A DNA stretch of 64,000 bases from positions 280,501-344,500 of the forward strand of contig BPKO01000002.1 of NCBI GenBank assembly GCA_026005175.1, written 5' to 3'. This document shows positions 44,109 to 59,437 of the stretch, piece after piece. The notes below the pieces were generated by a model, which saw nothing but the letters and a program-made list of their open reading frames with translations, was not told where the DNA came from and ran no database searches. Positions within the stretch are counted from its first letter, which is position 1, and each line of letters opens with the position of its first letter. A program made the translations under genes and the position numbers. The DNA comes from Candidatus Tectimicrobiota bacterium. Lineage in GTDB: Bacteria > Tectomicrobia > Entotheonellia > Entotheonellales > Entotheonellaceae.

Positions 44109-45470
44109 TCAGATGTCGGGGGCGGAGAGGTGGTACTCTTTGAGCTTGCGGTAGAGGGTGGCGACGCCGATGCCAAGCTGCTGCGCCGCGGCCTGGCGGT
44201 TGCCGCCACAGCGCTGCAAGGCCTGCAAAATCGCCGCGCGTTCAATGTCGGCCAGGGTGGCGGTGGCCGGCAGGACGAAGTGGTCGGGGGGCGCAGGCGG
44301 GACGCCTTGCAGGTGGGGCGGCAAGTCGGCAAGATCGAGCGTTGGCCCCTGTGCCAGGACCACGGCGCGCTCGATGACGTGCTCGAGCTCGCGCACGTTG
44401 CCGGGCCAGTGGTAGTCCTGCAAGCGCTGCAGGGCCCGCTGCTGGATGGCGGTGATGTCTTTGTGGTTCTGCTGGGCATACTTGCGGATGAAGTGGGCCA
44501 CCAGCAATGGGATGTCCTCGCGCCGCTCGCGCAGGGGTGGCAGGCGGATGGCGATGACGTTGAGGCGGTAAAAGAGGTCCTCGCGAAAGCGATGCGCCGC
44601 CACTTCCTGCTGCAGGTCCTTGTTGGTGGCGGCAATGATGCGCACGTCCACGTGCAGCGTCTGGGTGCCGCCGAGGCGCTCGAAGGTGCCTTCCTGCAAA
44701 ACGCGCAGCAGCTTGGTCTGCACTTCCAGGGGCATGTCGCCGATCTCGTCGAGAAAAAGCGTGCCGCCGTGGGCCAGCTCGAAGCGCCCCGCTTTGCGCT
44801 GTGCGGCACCGGTAAAGGCCCCCTTTTCGTAGCCAAAGAGCTCGGCTTCGATGAGCGTGAGGGGGAAGGCGGCGGCGTTGAGGGTGATAAAGGGCCGCGC
44901 GGCGCGGGGACTGAGCCGGTGCAGCAGGCGAGCAATCAGCTCCTTGCCGGTGCCGCTTTCGCCGGTAAGCAGCACCGTGGCCCGCGTGGGTGCCACTTGC
45001 TCCACCAGGGCACAGATGCGGCGCCACGCCGGGCTCGAGCCGATCACCTCGGCGCGGGCAAACTGGTCCTGCACCTGCTGCTTGAGGAGCAGGTTTTCTA
45101 CCAACACGCGGCGCAGCGTCAGGGCCTTCTGTACCGTGCGCAACAGCTCAGCCTTGCCAAAGGGCTTGACCAGGTAGTCAAAGGCACCGGCTTTCATCGC
45201 CTCCACCGCGGCGCTGACGTCGCTGTGGCCGGACATCATCACCACCACCAGATCAGGGTAGGCGGCTTTGACATGACGCAGCAAGGCCAGCCCGTCGGTG
45301 CCCGGCATCTTCACGTCGCTGATCATCACGTCGACGGCCGCCGCCTGCAGGTGTGCCAGCGCTTCGGCCGCCGAGGCGGCCGTCAGCACCTCGTGCCCCT
45401 CGCGTTGCAGGGCCGCCTGCAACGCGTCGCGGGCGCTGCGCTCGTCGTCGATAACCAAAATGCGGGCCAT
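44109..45470 (-). CDS. NtrC-family sigma-54 response regulator
   Basis: 453 intact residues. Receiver domain with aspartate in [14 protein letters not shown] and lysine in [10 protein letters not shown]+ domain with Walker A GESGTGKE, the GAFTGA loop in [11 protein letters not shown] and FLDEIGDM; Fis-type helix-turn-helix [20 protein letters not shown] at the end. It lies 15 bases downstream of its cognate kinase. It activates sigma-54 promoters; the nearest ones are at 43390, 43611 and 46741, and the TCTCA-N3-TGAGA dyads are its most likely target. Confidence 0.95.
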
Positions 45471-45485: not shown

Positions 45486-46610
45486 CTAGCCGCCGGCGCC
45501 GTGGCGGGGCAGGCGCAGAGTGAAGGTGGTGCCTACGCCGAGGGTGCTGGCCACCTCGATCTCCCCGCCGTGGGCGCGAATGATCTCGCGCACCAAGTAG
45601 AGGCCCAGGCCGGTGCCTTCAGGCTTGGTGCTGTGGAAGGGGCTAAACAGCAAAGGCAGGTGCTCAGGGGGAATGCCACAGCCACTGTCGCTGATCGCCA
45701 GGAAGACGTGAGTGGCGGTGGCCCAGGCGCGCAGGCTGAGGGTGCCTCCTTGGGGCATGGCCTCAAGGGCGTTGTGGCTCAGGTTGAGGAGCAGGCGGCG
45801 AAAGCTGCTGCCGTGCAAGGCCACCGTACCCAGGGGAGCGTCGCTTTCGAGGCGCAAGACCACGCCGCGCTCCGCCAGCCGCGGCTGCAGTTCTCGACAG
45901 AAGGCCTGCAAGTAAGCGGCAAAATCAACCGGCTCGCGCGGCAGCTCCGGCAAGCGGGCCAGCGACAGGTACTGCTGGGCCAGGTCGTACAGGCGCGTCA
46001 CTTCTTCTTTGATAGCCGCCAGGGAGTCGAGGATGCGCTGGCGATCACCTCCATCAGGGCGGCGCACTTCGTCTTCAAGCAAGTCGGCGTGCAGGAAAAT
46101 GGCGGTCAGCGGCGTGCGGATCTCGTGGGTCACCGCACCGGCCAGCCGCCCGAGGAGGCTGAGGCGCTCGCTTTGCACCATGCGGCGGTGCAGGGCTTCG
46201 AGCTCCGAGAGATCACGCAGCACCACCACGGCCTGCCGCTGGCTGCTGCCCAGTTGGCGCAGCGGCGAGCAGCGAATGCTGACCGGCAGGCGGCGGCCGT
46301 CGGCTCGCACCAGCAGCAGCCGCTCACCCACTGTGGGGGTCCCCGCCAGCGCTTCCTGGACCAGCCGTGTCGCCACCTGCGGCTGGTCGAAGAGCCGCGC
46401 CAGGCCCACCGCGTTCACTTCCGCCAGGGTATAGCCGGTGAGCTGGGCGGCCCGCGGGTTCCAGGAAACGATGCTGCCCTCGGCGGTGAGGATGGCTACC
46501 CCTTCGGTGAGTTGGGCCAGAACCTCTGCCAGCAGCGCCTCTGCTTCCTGGGACGGAACGGCACTGCTGGCAGGCAGCGGCGGGGTCTCAAGCTCGGCGT
46601 GGTGGGACAT
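45486..46610 (-). CDS. PAS-domain sensor histidine kinase
   Basis: 374 residues, no membrane helix, so cytosolic. A PAS domain (about 25-135; GVAILTAEGSIVSWNPRAAQL) is followed by the H-box GAVTHEIRTPLTAIF and the ATPase boxes NLSHNALEAMP, DSGCGIPPEHL and GTGLGLYLV. It would phosphorylate the adjacent NtrC-type regulator. ATG 46610 after AAAGGAACGTTCC is preferred over an upstream TTG. Its 5' end faces the sigma-54 promoter of the aminomutase cluster. Confidence 0.93.
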   Translation of the reverse strand: MSHHAELETPPLPASSAVPSQEAEALLAEVLAQLTEGVAILTAEGSIVSWNPRAAQLTGYTLAEVNAVGLARLFDQPQVATRLVQEALAGTPTVGERLLLVRADGRRLPVSIRCSPLRQLGSSQRQAVVVLRDLSELEALHRRMVQSERLSLLGRLAGAVTHEIRTPLTAIFLHADLLEDEVRRPDGGDRQRILDSLAAIKEEVTRLYDLAQQYLSLARLPELPREPVDFAAYLQAFCRELQPRLAERGVVLRLESDAPLGTVALHGSSFRRLLLNLSHNALEAMPQGGTLSLRAWATATHVFLAISDSGCGIPPEHLPLLFSPFHSTKPEGTGLGLYLVREIIRAHGGEIEVASTLGVGTTFTLRLPRHGAGG

Positions 46611-46740
46611 GGAACGTTCCTTTCGCAAGCGGTGCCGGGGTGGTGTGCGCCTCGCGTACTAACAAAAAGCTAGCACGCCGCGGCAAGGCACACAAGGCCA
46701 TTGCCGCCTGCCCGCACCGCTTCCTGCGACTGCCGGGCAG

Positions 46741-46756
46741 TGGCACGATTTGTGCA
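46741..46756 (+). promoter_or_regulatory. Sigma-54 promoter of the aminomutase/amidoligase cluster
   Basis: TGGCACGATTTGTGCA has a perfect -24 half, correct spacing and TGC at -12 (one T to G change). Transcription would start near 46767. I found no convincing tandem dyad in the interval 46611-46740; half-sites TCTCA and GGACA occur just inside the divergent kinase gene. Otherwise the gap 46611-46924 holds only the leader. Confidence 0.6.
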
Positions 46757-46924
46757 ATGGTTGAGTCGCGGAAAATGCCCTGGACAGGGCAGAATCCCCT
46801 TGCAGCGGCGTCGGGGAGGAGTACGATACATAGGCGCGCCGATCGAAGAACGCCCGCTGTCCCCGCCGCTGCCCGGGAGTCGCACCGGAGTGAGCGGATA
46901 TTTCTGGCGAGAAGGAGAACCGCC

Positions 46925-48200
46925 ATGCTCCAGAGTCTCGACCCCGAAAGTCTCGAGCCGCCGGGTAACGGGGGTGGCGGCGACGGCAACGCCACCGGCT
47001 TCGTTCCCGGCTTCTTCCCCACCGCGACAGAAGCCCCGCCCGCTGCCTCGCTTTGTCATCAGCCCCCACAGCCGTGCCTTCCGGCGGCGCTTTTTCCCCG
47101 AGGCCAGCGACGCCGAGTGGAACGACTGGCGCTGGCAGCTGCGCCAGCGCATCCGCGACCTGGCCGGGCTGGAGCGCCTATTGCGCCTCTCAGAGGACGA
47201 GCGCCAAGCCATCCTGCGCCACCGAGGCACGCTGCCCCTGGGCATTACCCCTTACTACGCCAGCCTGCTCGACGCCGAGGACCCGCAGCAGCCGCTGCGC
47301 CGCACCGTGGTGCCGGTGAGCGCCGAGTACCTGCGCTTGCCTGGGGAAGCCGATGACCCGCTGGCCGAAGACGCCCACAGCCCAGTGCCCGGCATCGTGC
47401 ACCGCTACCCCGACCGCGTGCTGTTTCTGGTCACTGGCTTTTGTCCTGTCTACTGCCGCTACTGCACCCGCTCGCGGCTGGTGGGTGACCCTGGCGGCGC
47501 CTACCGCTTCAGCGTCTCGCAGTGGGAGCAGGCCCTGGCCTATATCGAGGCCACGCCGGCGGTGCGCGACGTGCTGCTTTCGGGCGGCGACCCCCTGACG
47601 TTGAGCGATGAGCGCCTTGCCTGGCTGCTGGCGCGCCTGCGCCGCATTCGCCACGTGGAACTGGTGCGCCTGGGCACCAAGGTGCCGGCGGTGCTGCCGC
47701 AGCGCATCACGCCTGCCCTGACGCGCCTGCTCAGGCGCTTTCACCCGCTGTGGCTGAGCCTGCACTTTACCCATCCCGACGAGCTGACCCCCGAAGTGCG
47801 CCAGGCCTGCGCGCGTCTTGCCGACGCCGGTATCCCCCTGGGCAGCCAGACGGTGCTGCTGGCCGGCATCAACGACGACGTCGCGACCCTGCGGCGCCTC
47901 TTCCAGGGGCTGCTCACCTTTCGCGTCCGCCCTTACTACCTCTACCAGTGCGACCCGATCTCCGGCTCGGGCCACTTCCGCACTCCGGTGGCCAGAGGGC
48001 TCGAGCTCATTCGCGGGCTGCGCGGCCATACCACCGGCTACGCCGTGCCCACCTTCGTCATCGACGCCCCAGGCGGCGGCGGCAAGGTGCCCTTGCAGCC
48101 CGAAGCCATCGTTGGGCGCGACGGCAACGACTTGCTGCTGCGCAACTACGAGGGACGCCTCTACCGCTACCCCGACCCCCTAGGCGGGCCGGGGGCGTGA
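46925..48200 (+). CDS. kamA: KamA-family lysine 2,3-aminomutase (radical SAM; one probable frame break)
   Basis: The main frame carries RRRFFPEASDAEWNDWRWQL and the radical-SAM cluster motif CPVYCRYC (about 174-181). It also has DVLLSGGDPLTLSD and the PLP lysine in FVIDAPGGGGKVP (about 386). The acids in QCDPISGSG and VIDAPG correspond to the pair that holds the lysine side chain in characterised lysine aminomutase, so L-beta-lysine is the expected product. The start ATG 46925 follows GCGAGAAGGAGAA, the same leader as the USP and gapdh genes; an extra G in 46970-46974 would explain the shift. Corrected, it has 424 residues. Confidence 0.85.
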
Positions 48201-48217
48201 AGCGAGGAGGAAGTGCG

Positions 48218-48829
48218 ATGCGGCTTTGCGTCCGGTGTGCACAACACGAACGCACCTGCTGCCAGGGCACCGAGGTGCTGGTCACCGACGGCGACATTGC
48301 ACGCATCGCCGCCTACACCGGCCGGCACGATTTCTGGGAGTTTCGGCGGCCTGCCGACCCGTGGTACCTCACGCCGCAGCCCGCCGACCCCAACTGGCTT
48401 CTCTACACGGCGCGGGCCGACGGCACCCGTCCGGTGCTCAAGCACCAGGCCTCGGGGGACTGCGTCTTCCTTACCGCCCAGGGCTGCAGTTTGCCCCTGA
48501 CGGTGCGCCCCCTGGTGTGCCGCCTCTACCCCTACGACTACACCGAGCGGGGCATCACCGGCACCGTTCCCGGCTGCCCCCTCTACTTGCTCGAAGAGGG
48601 CGAGGACTTGTTCACGGCGCTGGGCATGCGGCTGGAGGAGGCCCAGCAGTGGCGACGACAGCTCTACCAGGAACTGCGCCGCGGGAGGGTGTGGCGTGAG
48701 AATCGGCATCACCTACGATCTGCGGCAGGAGTACCTCGCCGCCGGCTACAGCGAAGAAGAAACGGCGGAGTTCGACCTGCTCGAGACCATCGAAGCCCTG
48801 GAAGCGACGCTGCAGCAGCTGGGATGTGA
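48218..48829 (+). CDS. YkgJ-family cysteine-cluster protein
   Basis: 203 residues as read. Cysteine clusters CVRCAQHERTCCQGTE near the start and CVFLTAQGC plus PLVCRLYPYDY later match the YkgJ (PF03692) zinc- or iron-binding family, whose function is unclear. GAGGAGG precedes the ATG. The frame overlaps the next gene by 134 bases, while an alternative frame would stop at 48699 and give a GTGA overlap with its start. A late frame error is therefore likely, and the last 40 residues are doubtful. It is the second gene of the cluster. Confidence 0.75.
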   Translation: MRLCVRCAQHERTCCQGTEVLVTDGDIARIAAYTGRHDFWEFRRPADPWYLTPQPADPNWLLYTARADGTRPVLKHQASGDCVFLTAQGCSLPLTVRPLVCRLYPYDYTERGITGTVPGCPLYLLEEGEDLFTALGMRLEEAQQWRRQLYQELRRGRVWRENRHHLRSAAGVPRRRLQRRRNGGVRPARDHRSPGSDAAAAGM

Positions 48830-49704
48830 GGTGGAGCGCATCGGCCACGTGCGGCAGCTGGCGGCGCGCCTGGTGGCGGGGGGCGCGCTGGGACCTGGTG
48901 TTCAACATCGCCGAAGGCCTGCACGGCTTTGCCCGCGAAGCGCAGGTGCCGGCGCTGCTGGAAGCCTACGGCGTGCCCTACACCTTCTCCGATCCCCTGG
49001 TGCTTGCTTTGGCGCTGCACAAGGCGCTTACCAAGGCGGTGCTGCGCGCCCACGGGGTGCCCACCCCCGACTTTGCCGTGGTGCACACGCCGGCCGAGGT
49101 CGACGAGCTCGCCTTGCCGTATCCGCTCTTTGCCAAGCCGGTGGCCGAAGGCACCAGCAAAGGCATCAGCGCCGCCAACACCGTTTACACCCCGGCCGAG
49201 CTGCGCCGCCTCTGCACCACCCTGCTGGCCACCTACCGCCAGCCGGTGCTGGTGGAGACGTTTCTGCCCGGCCGCGAGTTTACCGTCGGCTTGCTGGGTA
49301 CCGGGGCGCAAGCGCGCGTGCTGGGGGTGATGGAGGTGACGCTCTTGCCCCAAGCCGAGCCCGGCGCCTACTCGTACGCCAACAAGGCCGATTACCTTGA
49401 CCGCGTGGCTTACCGCCTGGCCGATGACGCCGTGGCGCAGCGCGCCGCCGCCGTGGCCCTGCAGGCCTGGCGCCTTTTGGGCTGCCGCGACGCCGGCCGC
49501 GTCGACTTGCGCTGCACCGCCGCCGGCGAGCCGCAGTTCCTGGAAGTCAATCCCCTGGCCGGGCTGCACCCGCAGCACTCGGACCTGCCCATCCTCTGTC
49601 GCCTGCGCGGCATCGACTACGGCCAGCTCATCGCCATGATCCTGGCCGCCGCCTGCCAGCGCCTGGCCCTGCCGTGGCCGCTGGCCACCGTGGAGGCACG
49701 ATGA
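48696..49704 (+). CDS. D-Ala-D-Ala ligase-like ATP-grasp enzyme (broken by one base)
   Basis: Starts at GTG with RIGITYDLRQEYLAAGYSEEE. After the break (an extra G in 48878-48883) it continues WDLVFNIAEGLHGFAREAQ, PLFAKPVAEGTSKGI, LVETFLPGREFTVGLLG and FLEVNPLAGLHP. These are the Ddl-type ATP-grasp hallmarks including the Mg-binding Glu-x-Asn. Corrected length is about 335 residues. It should join a carboxylate to an amine using ATP; context argues against cell-wall D-Ala-D-Ala as substrate. Confidence 0.88.
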
Positions 49705-50693
49705 GGGTCGCTCTTCTTTACGGCGCCGTAGCCGCCGACGCCGGCCCCGACGAGCAGGACACCCTGGTGCAGGTGGCAGCGCTGGCGCAGGCCTTGCAGG
49801 CGCTGGGGCACGAGGCGGTGGCGGTGCCGCTGACGTCCTGCCTGGCGCCGGCAGCCGCCCGCCTGCGGGCGCTGCGGCCGGCCTGCGTGGTCAATCTGGT
49901 GGAGACCGTAGCCGGCAGCAGCCGCGCCATCCACCTCGGACCGCAGCTGCTGGAGCGCCTGGGGCTGCCCTATACCGGCGCGGCGGGGGCAGTGCTGGTA
50001 GCTACCACCAACAAGCTGCGCACCAAAGCGCTGCTGGCCGCTGCCGGCATTGCCACGCCGCCCTGGTGTACGGAGGCCTTTCTGCACCGCCACGGCGTGC
50101 CCTTCCCCGGCCCGTACATCGTCAAGTCGGTGTGGGAGCACGGCTCGCTTGGCCTCGACGATGCAGCGGTGGTGGCCACCGCATCGCAGCTGCGGGCGCT
50201 GCTGGCGCAGCGCCGCCACCAGGCCGCTGCTCCCTGGTTCGTGGAGCGCTACATCGCCGGCCGCGAGTTCAACCTGGCCCTGCTCGCCGGCCGCCACGGC
50301 CCCGAGCTCCTGCCGCCGGCAGAGATGCTCTTTGTCGACTACCCCGCGGACAAGCCCCGCATCGTCGACTACCGGGCCAAGTGGGAGCCCGCTTCCTTTG
50401 AGTACCGGCACACGCAGCGGTGCTTCACCTTTTCCCGCCACGAGGCGCCGCTGCTAGAGCGCCTGGCGGCCCTCGCCCACGCCTGCTGGCAACGGCTGGG
50501 GCTTGCGGGCTACGCCCGCATCGACGTGCGGGTCGATGCCGCCGGCAGGCCATGGGTGCTGGAAGTCAACGCCAACCCGTGCCTGGCCCCCGACAGCGGC
50601 TTTGTGGCAGCGGCCGCCCGTGCCGGCTGGGCTCTGGAAGACGTGGTGCAGCGGCTGCTGGCCGCTGCCCAGCCGCGTGCCGGAGGAAAGTGA
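49701..50693 (+). CDS. ATP-grasp ligase, second copy
   Basis: 330 residues, Ddl-like fold. MRVALLYGAVAADAGPDEQD, VVNLVETVAGSSRAIH, YIVKSVWEHGSLGLDDAAV and WVLEVNANPCLAPDSGF show the ATP- and Mg-binding sites. It is related to, but clearly different from, the gene before it, whose stop it overlaps by four bases (ATGA). Two ligases in tandem suggest two successive peptide-like bonds. Confidence 0.88.
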   Translation: MRVALLYGAVAADAGPDEQDTLVQVAALAQALQALGHEAVAVPLTSCLAPAAARLRALRPACVVNLVETVAGSSRAIHLGPQLLERLGLPYTGAAGAVLVATTNKLRTKALLAAAGIATPPWCTEAFLHRHGVPFPGPYIVKSVWEHGSLGLDDAAVVATASQLRALLAQRRHQAAAPWFVERYIAGREFNLALLAGRHGPELLPPAEMLFVDYPADKPRIVDYRAKWEPASFEYRHTQRCFTFSRHEAPLLERLAALAHACWQRLGLAGYARIDVRVDAAGRPWVLEVNANPCLAPDSGFVAAAARAGWALEDVVQRLLAAAQPRAGGK

Positions 50694-50694
50694 C

Positions 50695-51228
50695 ATGGCA
50701 GGGCAGGGCGAGCGGCTCAAAGGGCTGCGCTACCGCACCCGGGTGCGCCCCGCCGACCGCGAGGCGGTGCGGGAGCTGGTGGCCACCGCCGGCGTCTTTT
50801 CGGACGCCGAAGTGGCCATTGCCCTGGAGCTGGTCGAGGCGCGCCTTGCCCAGGGGGCGCGCAGCGGCTATGCGTTTCTCTTTGCCGAGCTGCCCGGCGC
50901 TGCAGCAGACCTGGTGGTGGGCTATGCCTGCTTTGGCCCCATTCCGGCCACCGTGGCCAGCTACGACCTCTACTGGCTGGTGGTGCGGCCGGCCTACCGC
51001 GGCCTGGGCCTGGGCACGGCGCTGCTCGCCCGCAGCGAGGCATGGGTGCGCCGCCGGGGAGGAAAGCGCCTCTACGTGGAGACATCTTCGCGGCCGGCTT
51101 ACGCCCCGACGCGGGCCTTTTACTGCGCTCGTGGCTACCGCGAGGTGGCAGTGCTGCCCGACTACTACGCGCCAGGTGACGCCAAGGTGATTTACGTAAA
51201 GCTCCTGTCGTCCCAAGCCGCATGCTGA
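50695..51228 (+). CDS. GNAT-family N-acetyltransferase
   Basis: 177 residues. YWLVVRPAYRGLGLGTALLARSE is the acetyl-CoA pyrophosphate-binding motif A, and FYCARGYREVAVLPDYY motif B. In known pathways an aminomutase is paired with a GNAT (AblA/AblB) to make N-acetyl-beta-lysine. This protein could acylate the cluster product or an intermediate. It starts one base after the preceding stop with GGAGGAAAG upstream. Confidence 0.9.
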   Translation: MAGQGERLKGLRYRTRVRPADREAVRELVATAGVFSDAEVAIALELVEARLAQGARSGYAFLFAELPGAAADLVVGYACFGPIPATVASYDLYWLVVRPAYRGLGLGTALLARSEAWVRRRGGKRLYVETSSRPAYAPTRAFYCARGYREVAVLPDYYAPGDAKVIYVKLLSSQAAC

Positions 51229-52469
51229 CGCTCTCCCTTGACCACCTCACCGGACTCCTTTTCGTGGCCACTTACGTGGGCATCGCCCTGGGGCGCATCC
51301 CTGGCCTGCGTCTTGACCGCACCGGCATCGCCCTAGTGGGGGCGATTGCTCTCGTGGCGGTGGGGGCGATTTCTCTCCCGCATGCCACCGCTGCGGTGGA
51401 CTTTTCCACCCTCTTTTTGCTCTTTGGCCTCATGATCCTCTCGGCGCAGCTGCGCCTGGCCGGCTTCTACCGCCTGGTGGCGGGCGCCGTGCTGCGCCAG
51501 GCGCGCCGCCCGCTGCGGCTGCTCAGCGGCGTGGTGGTGGCCAGTGCCGCGCTCTCCAGCCTATTTGCCAACGACATCGTCTGCCTGGCCTTCACGCCGG
51601 TGCTGTGCGAGGCGGTGCGCGCCGCCGGGCGCAATCCCGTGCCGTACCTCATCGCTCTTGCTACGGCGAGCAACATCGGCAGCGTGGCCACCCTGATTGG
51701 CAACCCGCAAAACATGTTCATCGGCCAGGTGGCGCAGCTCGACTTTGCCCACTACACCCTGGCGATGCTGCCGGTAGCCGCCCTGGGGGTGGTGGCCAAC
51801 GTGGCCGTGGTGGCCCTCGTCTGGCGCCGCGAGCTGCTGGCGCCCAAGGCCGAGGTGCTCGACCTGCCGGTGCCGGTGGAAGTGGCCACCTTGACCCCGG
51901 ACCGCTACCTCATTGCCAAGACCCTGGGGGTGACGGCCCTGCTGCTGGCAGCCTTCTTGCTGGGCCTGCCGCGCGACGTCAGCGCCCTGACCGCAGCGGC
52001 TTTCATGCTCTGTTCGCGGCGCACGCCGTCGCGGCAGCTCTACGCCCTGGTCGACTGGAACCTGATTCTTCTCTTCATGGGCCTCTTCGTGGTGATCGGC
52101 GCCTTGCAAGAGCGCAGCCTCATGCGCCAGGCCCTCGCCGCCCTGGCAGCCCACGGGGTGGTGCTGACCGCCCCCGGGGTGTTCGTGGCCGTGTGTACGA
52201 TTCTGGCCAACCTGGTGAGCAACGTGCCGGCGGTGCTGCTGCTGCGCGACGTCCCCGGTACCTCGCTACAGCTGTGGTATTTGCTGGCCATGGCCAGCAC
52301 CCTGGCCGGCAACTTGACCCTGGTGGGCAGCATCGCCAACCTCATCGTGGTGGAAAAAGCCGCCGACAGCGGCGTCACCGTCAGCTTTGCCGCCTACGCC
52401 CGAGTGGGGGTTCCCCTCACCGCGGTGACGCTTCTCTTGGGGACCCTGTGGCTGGTGGCCGTCACTTGA
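51222..52469 (+). CDS. SLC13/ArsB-type membrane transporter
   Basis: 415 residues with about 11 helices. SSLFANDIVCLAFTPVLCEAV and LATASNIGSVATLIGNPQNM match the first conserved hairpin of the ArsB/NhaD/DASS ion-transporter superfamily, and LVSNVPAVLLLR with GNLTLVGSIANLIVVEKA matches the second. It overlaps the GNAT gene by seven bases. It may move the cluster product or a precursor, but family members also transport arsenite, Na+ or dicarboxylates. Confidence 0.85.
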   Translation: MLTLSLDHLTGLLFVATYVGIALGRIPGLRLDRTGIALVGAIALVAVGAISLPHATAAVDFSTLFLLFGLMILSAQLRLAGFYRLVAGAVLRQARRPLRLLSGVVVASAALSSLFANDIVCLAFTPVLCEAVRAAGRNPVPYLIALATASNIGSVATLIGNPQNMFIGQVAQLDFAHYTLAMLPVAALGVVANVAVVALVWRRELLAPKAEVLDLPVPVEVATLTPDRYLIAKTLGVTALLLAAFLLGLPRDVSALTAAAFMLCSRRTPSRQLYALVDWNLILLFMGLFVVIGALQERSLMRQALAALAAHGVVLTAPGVFVAVCTILANLVSNVPAVLLLRDVPGTSLQLWYLLAMASTLAGNLTLVGSIANLIVVEKAADSGVTVSFAAYARVGVPLTAVTLLLGTLWLVAVT

Positions 52470-52490
52470 GGATATACTTGGGCCGTGACG

Positions 52491-53189
52491 ATGACCCCGC
52501 TGGCTCTCGACATCTTGCCGCAGCCCGACGACACCACCTGTGGCCCCACTTGCCTGCACGCCGTCTACCGTTACTACGGGGACGAGGTGCCGCTGGCGCA
52601 GCTCATTGCCGAAACGCCGCGCTTGCCCAACGGCGGCACGCTGGCGGTGTTCCTGGCCCTGCACGCCTTGCGCCGCGGCTACCGCGCCACCATCTACACC
52701 TACAACGTGCAGCTTTTTGATCCCACCTGGTTTCGTCCTGGTGGCCCCGACTTGCGGCAGCGCCTGCGGGCGCAGCTGGCCCACAAGCGCGGGCACACGC
52801 TGCGCGTGGCCACCCGCGCTTACCTCGAGTTCCTCGACCGCGGCGGCAAGGTGCGCCTGGTCGACCTTTCTCCGGCGCTGCTCAGCCGTTACTTGCACCG
52901 CGGCATCCCTATCCTCACCGGCCTCAGTGCCACCTACCTTTACCGCTGCGCGCGCGAGTACGGGCCGCAGGGCGAGCCCGACGACGTGCGCGGCACCCCA
53001 GTGGGCCACTTCGTGGTGCTGTGCGGCTACGACCGCCGCCGCCGCCAGGTGGTGGTGGCCGACCCCCTATACCCCAATCCGCTAGCCGCTTCGCGCCAGT
53101 ACGCCCTGCGCGTGGAGCGGGTCATGGGCGCCATTTTGCTCGGCATTGTCACGTACGACGCCAACTTGCTCGTGCTTCGCCCGCCGTAA
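52491..53189 (+). CDS. C39-like cysteine peptidase-fold protein
   Basis: 232 residues. PQPDDTTCGPTCLHAVYRYYGD carries the Gln/Cys region, GHFVVLCGYDRR the catalytic histidine and VVADPLYPNP the aspartate, so all catalytic residues of a papain-like (C39) enzyme are present. No ABC or membrane domain is attached. It could cleave or transfer a peptide-like product. ATG 52491 is preferred over GTG 52485. It lies 12 bases before the RimK-like gene. Confidence 0.82.
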   Translation: MTPLALDILPQPDDTTCGPTCLHAVYRYYGDEVPLAQLIAETPRLPNGGTLAVFLALHALRRGYRATIYTYNVQLFDPTWFRPGGPDLRQRLRAQLAHKRGHTLRVATRAYLEFLDRGGKVRLVDLSPALLSRYLHRGIPILTGLSATYLYRCAREYGPQGEPDDVRGTPVGHFVVLCGYDRRRRQVVVADPLYPNPLAASRQYALRVERVMGAILLGIVTYDANLLVLRPP

Positions 53190-53201
53190 GGAGCCCGACG
53201 T

Positions 53202-54671
53202 ATGGCCGTGCTTATCGTGGTCAACAACCCCAAAGACTGGCCCTTGGCCGTCCCTGGCGTGGAAGTGGTGGCGGCGCGGGCCTACCTCACCGAGCCGCGC
53301 TACAGCGCCCTCAAAGGGGGCAAAGTGTTCAACCTGTGTCGCTCTTACCGCTACCAGAGCCTGGGCTATTACGTGTCGCTGCTAGCCGAAGCGCGCGGCC
53401 ACAAGCCCCTGCCCAGCGTGACCACCCTGCAGGACTTCGCTTCCCAAGCCCTGGTGCGCCTGCTCAGCGACGACCTCGACGCCCTGGTGCAGCGCAGCCT
53501 GGCGCCCCTGCGCTCCGAGGAGTTCGTGCTCAGCATTTACTTCGGGCGCAACCTCGCCCGGCGCTACGACCGCCTGAGCCGGCAGCTCTACGGCCTGTTT
53601 CAGGCTCCCCTCCTGCGCGCCCACTTCGTGCGCCGCGAGCGCTGGCAGCTACGCCAGATGGTGCCCATTCCCGCCAGCGACATTCCCGCCGAGCACCGCG
53701 ACTTTGTGGTGCAGGTGGCCACCGAGTATTTTGCCGGCCGGCGCACGGCCCTGCCGCGGCGCGCCGTGCCGCGCTACGACCTGGCCATTCTTTACGACCC
53801 GAGCGAGGCGCTGGCGCCTTCGGACGAGGCGGCATTGCAGCGCTTTGTGCGCGCTGCCACCGCCTTGGGCCTGCGTGTGGAGGTAATTGGCCGCGACGAC
53901 TACGGCCGCCTGGCCGAGTTCGACGCCCTCTTTCTGCGCCAGACGACGCACGTCAACCACTACACCTACCGCTTTGCCCGCCGCGCTGCCGGCGAAGGCC
54001 TGGTGGTGATCGACGATCCCGTCTCCATCCTCAAGTGCACCAACAAGGTCTACCTTGCCGAGCTGCTGCACCGCCACCGCATTCCTACCCCCCGCACGCT
54101 GGTGGTTCACCGCGACAACCTCGCTACCGTGCCGCAGGAGCTCGGCTTTCCTTGCGTGCTGAAGACCCCCGACGGCGCTTTCTCGCAAGGGGTGATCAAG
54201 GTGGACAGCGCCGCAGCGTTCTTTGCCCAGGCTGAGCGCCTCCTGGAGCGCTCCGACTTGATCATCGCCCAGGAATTCGTCCCTACCCCTTTTGACTGGC
54301 GCGTGGGCATCCTCGACCACCAGCCACTTTATGTGTGCAAGTACCACATGGCCGCGCACCACTGGCAGATTCTGCGCCGCGATCGCGCCGGCCGCAACCG
54401 CTACGGCAAAGTCGAGACCCTGCCCGTGTCCCAGGCGCCGCGGCAAGTGGTGCGCACCGCCTTGCGCGCGGCGGCGCTTATCGGCGACGGCCTCTACGGC
54501 GTCGACCTCAAACAAGTGGGGCGCCGCTGCTACGTCATCGAAGTCAACGACAACCCCAACATCGACGCTGGCGTCGAGGACGCCGTGCTGGGCGAAGCGC
54601 TGTACCGGCGCATCATGCAGGTCTTCCTCGACCGCCTGGAGCGGCGCAGCGCCGGAATCCTGCGGCCATGA
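53202..54671 (+). CDS. RimK-like ATP-grasp ligase with RLAN-type N-terminal domain
   Basis: 489 residues. The N-terminal 190 (MAVLIVVNNPKDWPLAVPGV, GKVFNLCRSYRYQSLGYYVS) match the domain found before RimK-like ligases. The ATP-grasp part has VIDDPVSILKCTNKVYLAELL, GFPCVLKTPDGAFSQGV, LIIAQEFVPTPFDWRVGIL and YVIEVNDNPNID with the Mg ligands. RimK-type enzymes add glutamate or similar amino acids to carboxyl ends. It is next to a C39-like and a GCS2-like gene, an arrangement I recognise from other proteobacteria. Confidence 0.88.
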   Translation: MAVLIVVNNPKDWPLAVPGVEVVAARAYLTEPRYSALKGGKVFNLCRSYRYQSLGYYVSLLAEARGHKPLPSVTTLQDFASQALVRLLSDDLDALVQRSLAPLRSEEFVLSIYFGRNLARRYDRLSRQLYGLFQAPLLRAHFVRRERWQLRQMVPIPASDIPAEHRDFVVQVATEYFAGRRTALPRRAVPRYDLAILYDPSEALAPSDEAALQRFVRAATALGLRVEVIGRDDYGRLAEFDALFLRQTTHVNHYTYRFARRAAGEGLVVIDDPVSILKCTNKVYLAELLHRHRIPTPRTLVVHRDNLATVPQELGFPCVLKTPDGAFSQGVIKVDSAAAFFAQAERLLERSDLIIAQEFVPTPFDWRVGILDHQPLYVCKYHMAAHHWQILRRDRAGRNRYGKVETLPVSQAPRQVVRTALRAAALIGDGLYGVDLKQVGRRCYVIEVNDNPNIDAGVEDAVLGEALYRRIMQVFLDRLERRSAGILRP

Positions 54672-55903
54672 CCGCCCCGCTTTCTTTGTTTGCCGGCTTT
54701 GGCCTCGAACTCGAGTACATGGTGGTGGACGCCACCACCCTCGAGGTGTTGCCGGTGGTCGACGACCTCCTGCGCGCCGTGGCCGGAACGTATACCAACG
54801 AGGTGGCGCTGGACGACATTGGCTGGTCCAACGAGCTGGTGTTACACGTCATTGAGCTCAAAACCAACGATCCGGTGCCGGCGCTGGAAGGCTTGCCCGA
54901 GCGCTTCCAGGCGCACGTGCGGCGCCTCAACGCCCTGCTGGCACCGCGGGGCGGCTGCCTGCTGCCCACGGGCATGCACCCGTGGATGGACCCGCGTCGC
55001 CAGACGCGCCTGTGGCCGCACGACGGCCGCGAGATCTACGCCGCTTTCCACCGGCTCTTTGACTGCCGCCGCCACGGCTGGGCCAACTTGCAAAGCGTGC
55101 AGCTCAACCTGCCCTTTGCCGACGATGCCGAGTTTGCCCGCCTGCATGCCGCTGTGCGCTTGCTGCTCCCGCTGCTGCCGGCGCTGGCCGCCAGCTCGCC
55201 GCTGGTGCGCGGGCGCCTGCGCGGCTGGCTCGATATGCGGCTCTACTTTTACAGCCGCAATGCCGCCCGCTTGCCGCTCGTCACCGGGCAGGTGATTCCT
55301 GAACCCGTCTACAGCCGGCAGGCCTACGAGCAGGAGATCCTGCAACCCCTATACCGCGCCGTTGCTCCGTACGACCCAGCGGGCTTGCTGCAGCACGAGT
55401 GGCTCAACGCCCGCGGCGCCATTGCCCGTTTTGACCGCTCCGCCATCGAGATCCGCGTCCTCGACGCCCAGGAGTGCCCCCTGGCCGATTTGACCCTCTG
55501 CCACGCGGCGGTGGCGGTGCTGCGCGCTCTGGTGGCCGAACGCTGGCTACCCCTGGCCGCCCAGCAGGCCTGGCCCACGGCTCCCCTGCACGCCTTGCTG
55601 CAGGCCACCATGCGCCACGGCGAGCAGGCCCGCATCTGCGACCTTGAGTACCTGCGTGCCTTTGGCTTGCCGCATCCCTGTACGGCCGGCCAGCTGTGGC
55701 AGCACCTGTGCACCACCCTCGGGCTGCTGGCCGAGGACAGCCCCTGGGCGCCGCCGCTGCGCACCCTGCTGGCCCACGGTCCCCTGGCCCGTCGCTTACG
55801 CCGTGCTTTGGGTGCCGCCCCCTCGCGCGAGCGCATCCGCGCCGTCTACCGGCAGCTGGCCGCATGCTTGCACGAAGGCAGGCTCTTCATCCCTCCAGCC
55901 TAG
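54668..55903 (+). CDS. GCS2-type carboxylate-amine ligase (glutamate-cysteine ligase family 2)
   Basis: 411 residues. FAGFGLELEYMVVDATTLEVLP is the Mg/ATP-binding start of the GCS2 family, HVIELKTNDPVPALEG gives the second metal site, and RFDRSAIEIRVLDAQECP matches the substrate end. It should form a gamma-glutamyl or similar amide with ATP. Its start overlaps the RimK-like stop by four bases (ATGA). It is the last gene of the cluster. Confidence 0.88.
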   Translation: MTAPLSLFAGFGLELEYMVVDATTLEVLPVVDDLLRAVAGTYTNEVALDDIGWSNELVLHVIELKTNDPVPALEGLPERFQAHVRRLNALLAPRGGCLLPTGMHPWMDPRRQTRLWPHDGREIYAAFHRLFDCRRHGWANLQSVQLNLPFADDAEFARLHAAVRLLLPLLPALAASSPLVRGRLRGWLDMRLYFYSRNAARLPLVTGQVIPEPVYSRQAYEQEILQPLYRAVAPYDPAGLLQHEWLNARGAIARFDRSAIEIRVLDAQECPLADLTLCHAAVAVLRALVAERWLPLAAQQAWPTAPLHALLQATMRHGEQARICDLEYLRAFGLPHPCTAGQLWQHLCTTLGLLAEDSPWAPPLRTLLAHGPLARRLRRALGAAPSRERIRAVYRQLAACLHEGRLFIPPA

Positions 55904-55969
55904 CCATGCCTGGACTTGCGGCGGCGCCTGCGCTACCATTTGAGGAAACTTGCGCGTGAGGAAAGCCGT

Positions 55970-58900
55970 TTGACGTCCTCTTGCCGTTTTGCCTGGTTGC
56001 TCCTCGTCGCTTCCCTGCTATGGGCGCTGGCGGTGGGCGCCCAGGCCCCCCCGCCTGCTCAGGAGGCTGCCCCTGCGGGGCCGGTGCTAGAAGGCCCGCT
56101 GCGGCCCGAAACGCTGGCGGCGCGCCGCACGGCGCTTCAGGCCCGCCTTGCCGCCCTGGCCCAGGCCACCCTGCCCAAGGAGGAGCTCGACGCCACCCGT
56201 GCCGCCTTGGAGCAGCAGCTCAAAGTCCTGGCCGCTCTGGAGGAGGCCTTTGCCCGGCGGGCCACCTACGAGGCGCAGCTCAAGCAGCTGCCGCAGCGCC
56301 TGGCCGAGCTGCAGGCGCAGCGCCAGGCCCTCGAGGCGCAGCCCCCGCCGCGCTTTACCGCCGTCACCGAGGCCCTGCGCGAACAGTACGAGGCGCAGCT
56401 GCAAGCGGTGCGTGCCGAGCTGGAGCAGCTAAGTAAGCAAAACGCTGCCGGCGAGCTGCGCCTGGCCGGCATCGCCAAAGAGCTCGAGCAGCTTGCCCAG
56501 GAGCGGGCACAGCTGGAAAAAGACCTCCTGGCCGCCCGCGCCGACTTGGCCAAAGCCGGCGAGCAGCGAGCATCGCTGCTGGCGCGCGTTGAGCTTCTCG
56601 ACCTGCAGGTACAGCTGCGGCGGGCCCAGGCCGCGGCACTGGAAGCAGAGCGCGAGTGGCTGACCAAACGCGGGCCCTTGCAGGACGCCCTGCTGGCCGT
56701 GGCGCAGGTGCGCCTGCAGGCCTTGCAGCGGGACCTCGACACCATCAAGCAGGCCCTGGGACAGGCGTTGCGCCGGGAGCAGGCACAGCTGAGCACCGCC
56801 GCCCAGGGCATCGAGCGCCAGCTGGAGCAGGCTGCCGACCCTGCGGAGGCCCTGGCCCTGGCGGTGCAGCTCGAAACCGTGGAGATCCGCAAGGCCACGG
56901 CTGCCTACCGCCAGCAGCTCAACCGCGTTGGCGACCAGGTGCTGGCCCAGGAAAAGCTCAACTTGCAAGAAAAGCAAGACGTGGAGCGCCTCACCTCGCT
57001 GGTGGAGAAGTACGCCAGCGGCGAGCGCGTCGCCCAACGGCTGCACCTGGCCTTTACCCGCCTGCGGCGCGAGCGCGAGCGCTTCCGCGACGACCTGGTC
57101 AAAAGCCTGGAAGCCGAGCTGCAAGCGCTGACGGAAAAAGCCCTTGAACTGGACGACCGCCTCTACGAGTTTGACCGCCAGGTGGAGGTCCGACTGCAAG
57201 AGCTGCTGTCGCAGCTGGGCGCCATGGCGCCAGAGAAACGCGAGGCCAGGCTGGCCAGGGTGCGCGAGGCGTTTGCGGCACAGAAAGCGGCCCTGCGCGA
57301 GCAGCAGCAGGTGCTGGCCACCCTGACCCAGGACCTCACCAAGCTCATTACCTTGCACCGCGAGCGCAAGCGCCTGCTCGACGACAGCTACCGCTTTATT
57401 CTCACCAAGCTCTTCTGGCTGCGCGACGGCCAGCCGCTGCGCAGCGCGGTGGTGGAAGCGGCGCTGCGCGGCGCGCTGAGCACCGCCGCGCGGCTGCGGG
57501 CGTTTGTGCACGCCGAGCTTACCACCCTTCTGGCGAGCCTGCTGCGCTCACTGCGCTTTTGGCTCTTGCTGCCTACCGTCTTCGTGCTCTTGCCGTGGCT
57601 GGCGCTGCGGCTGCGGCGCTGGCTGCGCGCCCGCGTGCGCGCTTACATCGACCGCGACATGCGCCAGCAGGCGGTGGGCTACCGGGTGGTGAGCGCGCTG
57701 CTCATGCTGCTGCAGACGACGGTGTGGCCGACGTACATCGCCGTGGTGGTGTGGATCTGGCCGCAGGTGCTGCCGGCCAGCAGCGCCCAGCCCGAACTGG
57801 AAAGCGCGCTCATTGCCGGACTGCAGCTGGGGGCGCTGCTGCTGTGGTTTGGCCTCCTGGGCCACGCCCTCTTCCGCCGCGAGGGCTGGGGGCAGCAGTA
57901 CTTGGGGCTTGGCCCGGAGCTGTGCCGCTTCTTGCAGCGGCTGGTACGGCTGGTGACGCTGGCGGCGCTGCTGTTTTTGGTGCCGCGGCAGGTCTTGCTG
58001 GCGGCGCCGGGGGAAGGGGAGCTGGCGGTCGCCAGCCTGGCCCTGGCCCGCTGCTTCTTCCTGGCCTTCCAGCTGGTGCTGCTGGCCGTGGCCATCCGGG
58101 CCGGCCGTCGCCGCAGCCCGCTGCTGCAGGCCATGCTGGCCCGCAGCCAGGCCCAAAACGGGCTGCTGTGGCGCAACTGGCCGCTGCTGCACGTCTTGCT
58201 GGTGCTGGGCATCGTTGCCATCATTGCCCTTGACGTGCAGGGTTATCGCTATGCCGCCCGCTCGCTGTGGCTGCGCTCCGCCGAGGCGCTGGGGGTGGTC
58301 TTCCTGCTTATGGCGGTATACAGCGCCCTGGGGGCGCTCATCGACCGCCTGGCGCGGCAGCGGCGCCGCCTGGGCGAGCGGCCCCTGGATCCCACCCAGC
58401 CCAGCCGCTGGTCGCTGCTGCAGCAGGGACGCCAGTTCCTGCGCTTCGTGCTGGTGCTGCTGGGGCTGGTGATCGTGCAGCACCTCTACGGCCTCGATCA
58501 AGACCTCTTTGCTGCCCTCGACGCCGTGACGCTCTTTGCCATTGGGACGGGAGACGCTGGCCAGCCGCTGTGGCTCACCCTGGGGGACGTGCTCAAAGTG
58601 GCGGCGATCCTCGGCGGTGCCACTTTGCTGGTGCGCAACTTGCCCGGCCTCTGCGAGGTGCTGCTGTTTCCGCGCCTGCAGTGGGATGCCGGCCTACGCT
58701 ACGCCTTCCTCACCCTGAGCCGCTACGCCGTGGTGCTGGCGGCGCTGTGGTGGAGCCTGGCCGAGCTGCACCTGCGCTGGTCGAGCATCCAGTGGATCAT
58801 CGCCGCGGCTTCCGTGGGCCTGGGCTTTGGCCTGCAAGAGATCGTCAGCAACTTCGTCAGCGGCCTCATTTTGCTCATCGAGCGCCCCATCAGCGTGGGC

Positions 58901-59437
58901 GACTTCGTCGCCGTGGGCGGCCAGGAAGGCACGGTGACGCGCATCACCATCCGCGCCACCACCATCCAGAACCTCGACAACCAGACGGTGATCATTCCCA
59001 ACAAGGAGTTCATCGCCGGCCAGGTGATCAATTGGACCCTGGGCGATACCTACGTGCGCGTCACGCTCAAGGTGGGGGTGGCTTACGGCAGCGACATGGA
59101 GCTGGTGCGGCGCCTGCTCACCGACGCAGTGAGTACGCACCCCAAGGTGCTGCGCTACCCGCCGCCGCAGGTGCTCTTCCGGGGCTTTGGCGACAGCTCG
59201 CTGGACTGGCAGGTGTGGTTCTTCGTGCCCACGCCGCGCGAGCGCTTCAGCGTCGCCCACGACGTGCTGCTGGCCATCGACCGCGCCTTCCGCCAGCACG
59301 GCGTGCAGATTCCCTTCCCGCAGCGCGATCTGCACCTGCGCTCGGCCGACGTTGCCCTTGCCGTGCGCCCCCTCGGCAACGCCCACGAGGTGTCGCCAGT
59401 GGTCCAGACCCCTGCCCAGCAGCCGCCCACGCCGTAA
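55970..59437 (+). CDS. Large MscS-family mechanosensitive channel (MscK/KefA-like)
   Basis: About 1155 residues. A signal peptide (TSSCRFAWLLLVASLLWAL) precedes a long periplasmic coiled coil (about 35-480, rich in Glu, Gln, Leu and Ala). Several membrane helices follow (about 530-960), then an MscS pore and beta domain (ASVGLGFGLQEIVSNFVSGLILL, SVGDFVAVGGQEGTVTRI, TVIIPNKEFI). It opens under membrane tension during osmotic downshift. I chose TTG 55970 since GAGGAAA precedes it and the signal peptide fits; a TTG at 55916 would add 18 residues. Confidence 0.9.
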   Translation: MTSSCRFAWLLLVASLLWALAVGAQAPPPAQEAAPAGPVLEGPLRPETLAARRTALQARLAALAQATLPKEELDATRAALEQQLKVLAALEEAFARRATYEAQLKQLPQRLAELQAQRQALEAQPPPRFTAVTEALREQYEAQLQAVRAELEQLSKQNAAGELRLAGIAKELEQLAQERAQLEKDLLAARADLAKAGEQRASLLARVELLDLQVQLRRAQAAALEAEREWLTKRGPLQDALLAVAQVRLQALQRDLDTIKQALGQALRREQAQLSTAAQGIERQLEQAADPAEALALAVQLETVEIRKATAAYRQQLNRVGDQVLAQEKLNLQEKQDVERLTSLVEKYASGERVAQRLHLAFTRLRRERERFRDDLVKSLEAELQALTEKALELDDRLYEFDRQVEVRLQELLSQLGAMAPEKREARLARVREAFAAQKAALREQQQVLATLTQDLTKLITLHRERKRLLDDSYRFILTKLFWLRDGQPLRSAVVEAALRGALSTAARLRAFVHAELTTLLASLLRSLRFWLLLPTVFVLLPWLALRLRRWLRARVRAYIDRDMRQQAVGYRVVSALLMLLQTTVWPTYIAVVVWIWPQVLPASSAQPELESALIAGLQLGALLLWFGLLGHALFRREGWGQQYLGLGPELCRFLQRLVRLVTLAALLFLVPRQVLLAAPGEGELAVASLALARCFFLAFQLVLLAVAIRAGRRRSPLLQAMLARSQAQNGLLWRNWPLLHVLLVLGIVAIIALDVQGYRYAARSLWLRSAEALGVVFLLMAVYSALGALIDRLARQRRRLGERPLDPTQPSRWSLLQQGRQFLRFVLVLLGLVIVQHLYGLDQDLFAALDAVTLFAIGTGDAGQPLWLTLGDVLKVAAILGGATLLVRNLPGLCEVLLFPRLQWDAGLRYAFLTLSRYAVVLAALWWSLAELHLRWSSIQWIIAAASVGLGFGLQEIVSNFVSGLILLIERPISVGDFVAVGGQEGTVTRITIRATTIQNLDNQTVIIPNKEFIAGQVINWTLGDTYVRVTLKVGVAYGSDMELVRRLLTDAVSTHPKVLRYPPPQVLFRGFGDSSLDWQVWFFVPTPRERFSVAHDVLLAIDRAFRQHGVQIPFPQRDLHLRSADVALAVRPLGNAHEVSPVVQTPAQQPPTP

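Follow-up and report, generated by a model that had tools for sequence, protein, structure and literature searches.

The question raised by this locus is whether nine closely packed genes, headed by a lysine aminomutase and rich in amide-forming ligases, constitute one biosynthetic pathway. The genes lie in a stretch of 64,000 nucleotides from Candidatus Tectimicrobiota bacterium (assembly GCA_026005175.1, contig BPKO01000002.1, positions 280,501 to 344,500 of the forward strand), hereafter referred to as the window. According to Pfam and NCBIfam, the one-strand run encodes, in order, LAM_C/Radical_SAM (KamA), CxxCxxCC (YkgJ), two Dala_Dala_lig_C (ligase 1 and ligase 2), Acetyltransf_1 (GNAT), CitMHS/ArsB, Peptidase_C39, RLAN plus RimK, and GCS2 proteins, and the gaps between the nine genes are short or negative. 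An earlier reading made from the letters alone (the sequence-only reading) had placed these nine families here in this order on one strand, mostly overlapping or within 25 bases of each other, and both the families and the tight packing were borne out; its "membrane transporter" is present and was refined to the CitMHS/ArsB type. Its single nine-gene pathway did not hold up. With moderate confidence, we instead regard the locus as two independently inherited ligase operons placed in tandem downstream of a single sigma-54 site, of which module A (defined as KamA, ligase 1, ligase 2, and GNAT) would make a beta-lysine peptide without a nonribosomal peptide synthetase (NRPS), and module B comprises the C39, RimK-type, and GCS2 genes.

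Distribution of the clustered genes

Named genomes were scanned with the RimK-type protein, and 78 loci were obtained from Fibrobacteres, Gammaproteobacteria, Phycisphaerales, Nitrospirota, Sumerlaeota, Ignavibacteria, Bacteroidetes, and others. The C39, RimK-type, and GCS2 genes occurred together in 61 of these, their BLAST matches lying a median of 26 and 35 bases apart and in the order found in the window, where the three genes are adjacent on one strand. KamA, YkgJ, either Ddl-like ligase, GNAT, and the transporter had no match in any of the 78 loci (up to 10 kb on each side; many contigs were shorter). Module B is an independent, conserved, and widespread triad.

For module A, ligase 2 was searched in 386 genomes (67 with E ≤1e-20), and in 50 of the 78 module B genomes, and 40 neighbourhoods were fetched. 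KamA was present in the same cluster in 23 of the 40, accompanied by both ligases in 22 and by GNAT in 18. Eighteen of the 23 KamA-bearing loci came from the 386-genome sample, and these carried 16 family labels. The remaining 17 neighbourhoods gave no KamA match (L132, L134, L135, L139, L140, L142, L145, L170, L172, L176, L177, L180, L182, L183, L184, L185, and L188), some of them stopping at a contig edge (L172, L176). Two gene orders were found, KamA-ligase1-ligase2-GNAT and ligase1-ligase2-GNAT-KamA. A separate search with KamA gave one more full cluster (L233) and four loci with KamA and a single ligase 1 (L224, L225, L229, and L231); in G136 and G174, KamA was unlinked and the ligase pair was present in the genome. 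Pairwise distances of the four module A proteins correlated (r 0.58-0.83; largest of 500 permutations, 0.34). Module A is a compact operon recurring in many unrelated bacteria, with at least 16 family labels, and the proposed tie of the aminomutase to the ligases stood for KamA, both Ddl-like ligases, and GNAT.

Counts over the 386 genomes were used to compare the modules. The RimK-type protein (E ≤1e-60) was found in 26, not counting the window's own genome, and module A in 19 (including G092, with a single ligase matched), the latter number being a lower bound because module A was counted only where neighbourhoods were fetched. Both modules occurred in one of the 19 module A genomes (G290), about 1.3 being expected under independence, and carrying module A does not predict carrying module B. 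Among the 50 module B genomes searched, at least five hold module A elsewhere (L169, L171, L173, L174, and L175). No ligase 2, RimK-type protein, or KamA was detected in members of the window's own family (G001-G003) at the thresholds used. The neighbourhoods therefore showed independence at the join of the two modules and co-occurrence within module A, and the nine genes as one conserved unit were rejected on these neighbourhoods and counts. YkgJ was likewise rejected as part of a module, its motif being found in no other module A or module B locus; over the 386 genomes it had matches, apart from the own genome, only in G374 and G280, neither with module genes in the surrounding stretch fetched. 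The CitMHS/ArsB transporter had no match in module A or module B loci. Both are local additions travelling with neither module.

Association with NtrC and sigma-54

The sigma-54 promoter proposed ahead of the cluster was recovered as a candidate site (Table 1), and the divergent kinase/NtrC pair was confirmed by Pfam domains on the minus strand. An NtrC gene also adjoins module A in six relative loci (L137, L138, L178, L179, L181, and L233). When matches to the window NtrC were ranked genome-wide in five genomes (G151 left out), the NtrC beside module A was the best in three, G289, G230, and G090 (495, 475, and 478 bits; next best 416, 404, and 408 bits, respectively), and the second in G324. 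Matches to the window PAS kinase with 34-35% identity adjoin module A in L179 and L233.

Sigma-54 sites with at least 9 of 11 consensus positions were found in the gap of five of the six NtrC-linked loci (L137, L178, L179, L181, and L233). Thirteen upstream stretches that lack NtrC were scanned as well and had no such site; the stretches differ in length. The background of 45 sites per 761,508 strand-bases predicts about 0.3 sites for the six gaps, which total 4,915 bases. In L178, L179 (6957-7394), L181, and L233, which represent three family-level lineages, the first gene after the site encodes a lone CheY-like receiver, identified by Pfam in L179 and by inspection of the sequence in the other three. 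The association of module A with NtrC and sigma-54 was observed directly; the putative regulatory link is drawn from this site and neighbourhood evidence.

Predicted enzymes of module A

KamA aligned with the solved lysine 2,3-aminomutase (LAM; PDB 2a5h) across 368 residues, including the CxxxCxxC cluster, the pyridoxal phosphate lysine, and the equivalents of LAM Asp293 and Asp330, all of which were kept at 90% or more in 24 KamA sequences. These two Asp residues of the LAM pocket bind the side amine of lysine. The score against TIGR03820 (AblA equivalog) was below the cut-off of 525.4 bits, a shortfall due to the absent C-terminal tail (the match ends at position 361 of the 417-position profile), and five relatives were also below it (459-512 bits). 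The protein exceeded the cut-off of TIGR00238 (KamA family), scored 256 bits with the EpmB model TIGR03821, and is filed under the KamA family, not AblA. Judged by its residues, KamA should make beta-lysine, which agrees, as a predicted activity, with its earlier description as a lysine-type aminomutase.

The labels ligase 1 and ligase 2 were assigned from gene order alone. A branch of the tree (97/95; recovered in 98% of bootstrap trees) separates the complete set of 23 ligase 2 proteins from ligase 1, from the single ligases, and from the genome's own Ddl, which is encoded elsewhere and sits on a very long branch. The ligases labelled by order form separate branches, and two different ligation steps therefore appear to be conserved; the conserved order and the split fit two distinct reactions. 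The Mg/ATP-binding residues of ATP-grasp enzymes, comprising the E-x-N motif and lysines, were conserved in both (E240, N242, K66, and K104 in ligase 1; N291, N293, K106, and K143 in ligase 2). Their best scores, 143 and 105 bits, were far below the curated Ddl cut-off of 243 bits, and ligase 2 has Trp at the position aligned with the relay tyrosine of DdlB. They are predicted to keep ATP-grasp catalysis but not Ddl specificity.

Neither the window GNAT (NCBIfam matches to E 0.01) nor five relatives (to E 0.001) matched the AblB family. Inside or beside module A in three loci, GNAT was fused to a histone-deacetylase (HDAC)-like amidohydrolase (L136:7249-8991, L137:6081-7811, and L169:11091-12824), the L137 and L169 copies being 54-55% identical to that of L136. 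No GNAT-HDAC protein was found in the window, and two HDAC regions of the own genome matched the deacetylase half only, weakly. GNAT and its fusion suggest that an acetyl group may serve as a cap or a removable protecting group.

Two side observations concern ATP-grasp proteins near these ligases. A further ATP-grasp-like protein of about 300 amino acids is common to L138, L145, L148, and L187. In L134 (6405-8495), an ATP-grasp end is fused to a peptidase family S58 domain and is encoded divergently from the ligase 1-ligase 2 pair.

Predicted enzymes of module B

In an alignment of 32 C39 sequences, H175 was invariant and Q13, C19, and D193 were nearly so. The modelled RimK-type domain (residues 190-483) had ArgX, LysX, and RimK as its nearest folds (Z 28.0 to 26.6), and the GCS2 model (predicted local distance difference test, pLDDT, 94.7) most resembled YbdK (Z 37) and also matched plant glutamate-cysteine ligase (Z 34); fold searches of the two models returned nothing beyond the expected families. 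The GCS2 alignment contained 30 relatives, the incomplete L038 being left out. A further gene family lay within 5 kb of the triad in 30 of 54 loci (e.g., L069:12961-13884; 7 Rufibacter loci of the 61 were left out) and has no member in the window cluster; the single member tested was N-formylglutamate amidohydrolase-like.

Layout and state of the sequence

Features are listed in Table 1. The KamA open frame extends from 46701 to 48200, and homology to the solved aminomutase starts near 47082. The cluster had been bounded at 46925 and 55903; the ATG at 46925, although preceded by a good ribosome-binding site, does not share the reading frame of the KamA body, which has a GTG at 46974, and on the other side the strand runs on into an MscS-type gene. 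A six-G run carries a one-base shift that breaks the ligase 1 reading frame. Together with the KamA start (46925-47082) and the YkgJ end (48640-48699), which may also be frame-shifted, this makes three apparent one-base breaks near G runs, and these are probably assembly errors.

Table 1. Features of the locus, in window coordinates
Feature	Position	Strand	Evidence or remark
NtrC-type sigma-54 activator	44109..45470	-	Divergent; Response_reg, Sigma54_activat, HTH_8
PAS histidine kinase, partner of NtrC	45486..46628	-	PAS, HisKA, HATPase_c
Sigma-54-like site TGGCACGATTTGTGC	46741..46755	+	10 of 11 consensus positions
KamA, lysine 2,3-aminomutase-like (module A)	46974..48200	+	TIGR03820 475 bits; 450 bits to PDB 2a5h; exact start unsure
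YkgJ-like cysteine-cluster protein	48218..48829	+	PF03692 above cut-off; true end perhaps near 48699
Ligase 1, Ddl-like ATP-grasp (module A)	48696..49704	+	PF07478 95 bits; one-base frame break at 48878-48883
Ligase 2, Ddl-like ATP-grasp (module A)	49701..50693	+	PF07478 66 bits; tree branch apart from ligase 1
GNAT N-acetyltransferase, RimI-like (module A)	50695..51228	+	Pfam/NCBIfam; without AblB match
CitMHS/ArsB-type membrane transporter	51222..52469	+	PF03600 198 bits
C39-like cysteine peptidase (module B)	52485..53189	+	Pfam; catalytic residues
RLAN + RimK-type ATP-grasp ligase (module B)	53202..54671	+	Pfam; model of residues 190-483
GCS2-type carboxylate-amine ligase (module B)	54668..55903	+	Pfam; model pLDDT 94.7
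MscS-type (MscS/MscK-like) mechanosensitive channel	55916..59437	+	12 bases past GCS2, same strand

Proposed mechanism and alternatives

In the proposed mechanism, the divergent kinase/NtrC pair would probably switch the operon on at the 46741 site. KamA would probably convert L-lysine to beta-lysine, on or with which the two distinct ATP-grasp ligases would probably make two amide bonds in succession. GNAT would probably acetylate an amine, and the outcome would be a small peptide-like metabolite that needs no NRPS. Module B, independent elsewhere, would have been added here along with YkgJ and the transporter, and would probably make and trim a short glutamate-based peptide or protein tail. 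More tentatively, with somewhat less than even confidence, module A may be an undescribed, widespread NRPS-free route to an acetylated beta-lysine peptide, with two ordered ligases forming two different amide bonds and a dedicated NtrC/sigma-54 switch (a lone receiver being the first gene in three family-level lineages); in some genomes the GNAT-deacetylase fusion could add and remove an acetyl protecting group. Gene content, the modular split, the conserved gene order, the catalytic residues, and the NtrC and sigma-54 association were observed; the substrates, products, and physiological roles named here are those that we infer.

Several observations weigh against the two-operon reading. L138 showed no sigma-54 site and has an NtrC that ranks only second among the matches, the adjacent NtrC of G028 is far down the match list, and G090 and G230 belong to the same genus and count once. 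KamA lies below the curated lysine aminomutase cut-off, GNAT is absent from 5 of the 23 KamA-bearing loci, and the substrates of all the ligases are ones that we infer. The tree congruence of the four module A families could stem from shared host ancestry, and, with joins of 12-15 bases in the window, the two modules could by now work as one in this organism.

A single pathway in which the RimK-type and GCS2 ligases add glutamate to the beta-lysine product and C39 matures it would suit genes that share one strand, overlap or lie about 15 bases apart, and have a single sigma-54 site upstream; it is improbable given that no module A gene occurs in the 78 module B loci, that one of 19 module A genomes has module B, and that the modules lie apart in genomes with both. 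That the join is an assembly chimera, the frame breaks in G runs reflecting poor sequence, is highly improbable, since both modules lie on one 446 kb contig with a steady G+C content (66-72% over 44-60 kb) and operon-like gaps.

Other alternatives concern the product of module A. It might be a compatible solute, an N-acetylated beta-lysine amide like N-epsilon-acetyl-beta-lysine or N-acetylglutaminylglutamine amide (NAGGN), and the MscS gene downstream in the window would fit an osmotic duty. We consider this rather unlikely: KamA with an acetyltransferase follows the known N-epsilon-acetyl-beta-lysine logic, as described in PMC3543383, but the GNAT is not AblB by NCBIfam, no MscS gene lies near other module A loci, and the control KamA loci L227 and L232 do have beside KamA a protein of 275-279 amino acids taken, by size and inspection of the sequence, for AblB. 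The ligases might instead modify a protein with beta-lysine, in the way EpmA/EpmB act on EF-P, EpmB being a KamA relative; this is quite improbable, as the AblA model scores far above that of EpmB (475 versus 256 bits) and no EpmA-type synthetase is found among the clustered genes. To our knowledge, all characterised Ddl-like ligases act on free small substrates, which also argues against protein modification.

Beta-lysine is known from a few osmolytes, EF-P modification, and antibiotics. An operon that couples KamA to two ATP-grasp ligases in a set order, and that is conserved under no fewer than 16 family labels, would indicate a frequent yet unseen type of small molecule, and the NtrC/sigma-54 switch would offer a ready genetic handle for finding the module A product.

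Comparison with known systems

No description of KamA with two Ddl-like ligases was found in the open literature, a search that did not cover the survey of Iyer et al. 2009 and does not claim absence from print. The parts and logic are of known kinds; as far as the open literature searched shows, KamA has not been described in a fixed set with two ordered Ddl-like ligases, GNAT, and an NtrC switch. According to PMC3543383, a KamA-type aminomutase and an acetyltransferase (ablA/ablB) make N-epsilon-acetyl-beta-lysine. Module A shares this pair of a KamA-type lysine aminomutase and an acetyltransferase, but its GNAT is RimI-like, its KamA is missing the C-terminal tail present in the AblA model, and two ATP-grasp ligases are added. 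In NAGGN synthesis, a GNAT and an ATP-grasp ligase yield an acetylated dipeptide, and an asparagine-synthetase-type amidotransferase takes part; module A follows the same GNAT and ATP-grasp logic, but is without the amidotransferase and has an aminomutase and two ligases. The module A ligases resemble Ddl/VanA in fold family by sequence and in ATP/Mg-binding residues, and differ in scoring far under all Ddl cut-offs, in their great distance from the genome's own Ddl, and, for ligase 2, in the Trp at the relay tyrosine. The amidoligase operons surveyed by Iyer et al. reportedly combine ATP-grasp and GCS2 ligases, peptidases, and GNAT in conserved neighbourhoods, and are said to include the RLAN/GCS2/peptidase set. 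The module B ligase shares its ATP-grasp domain with RimK, LysX, and ArgX, but carries an N-terminal RLAN domain and has C39 and GCS2 as fixed partners.

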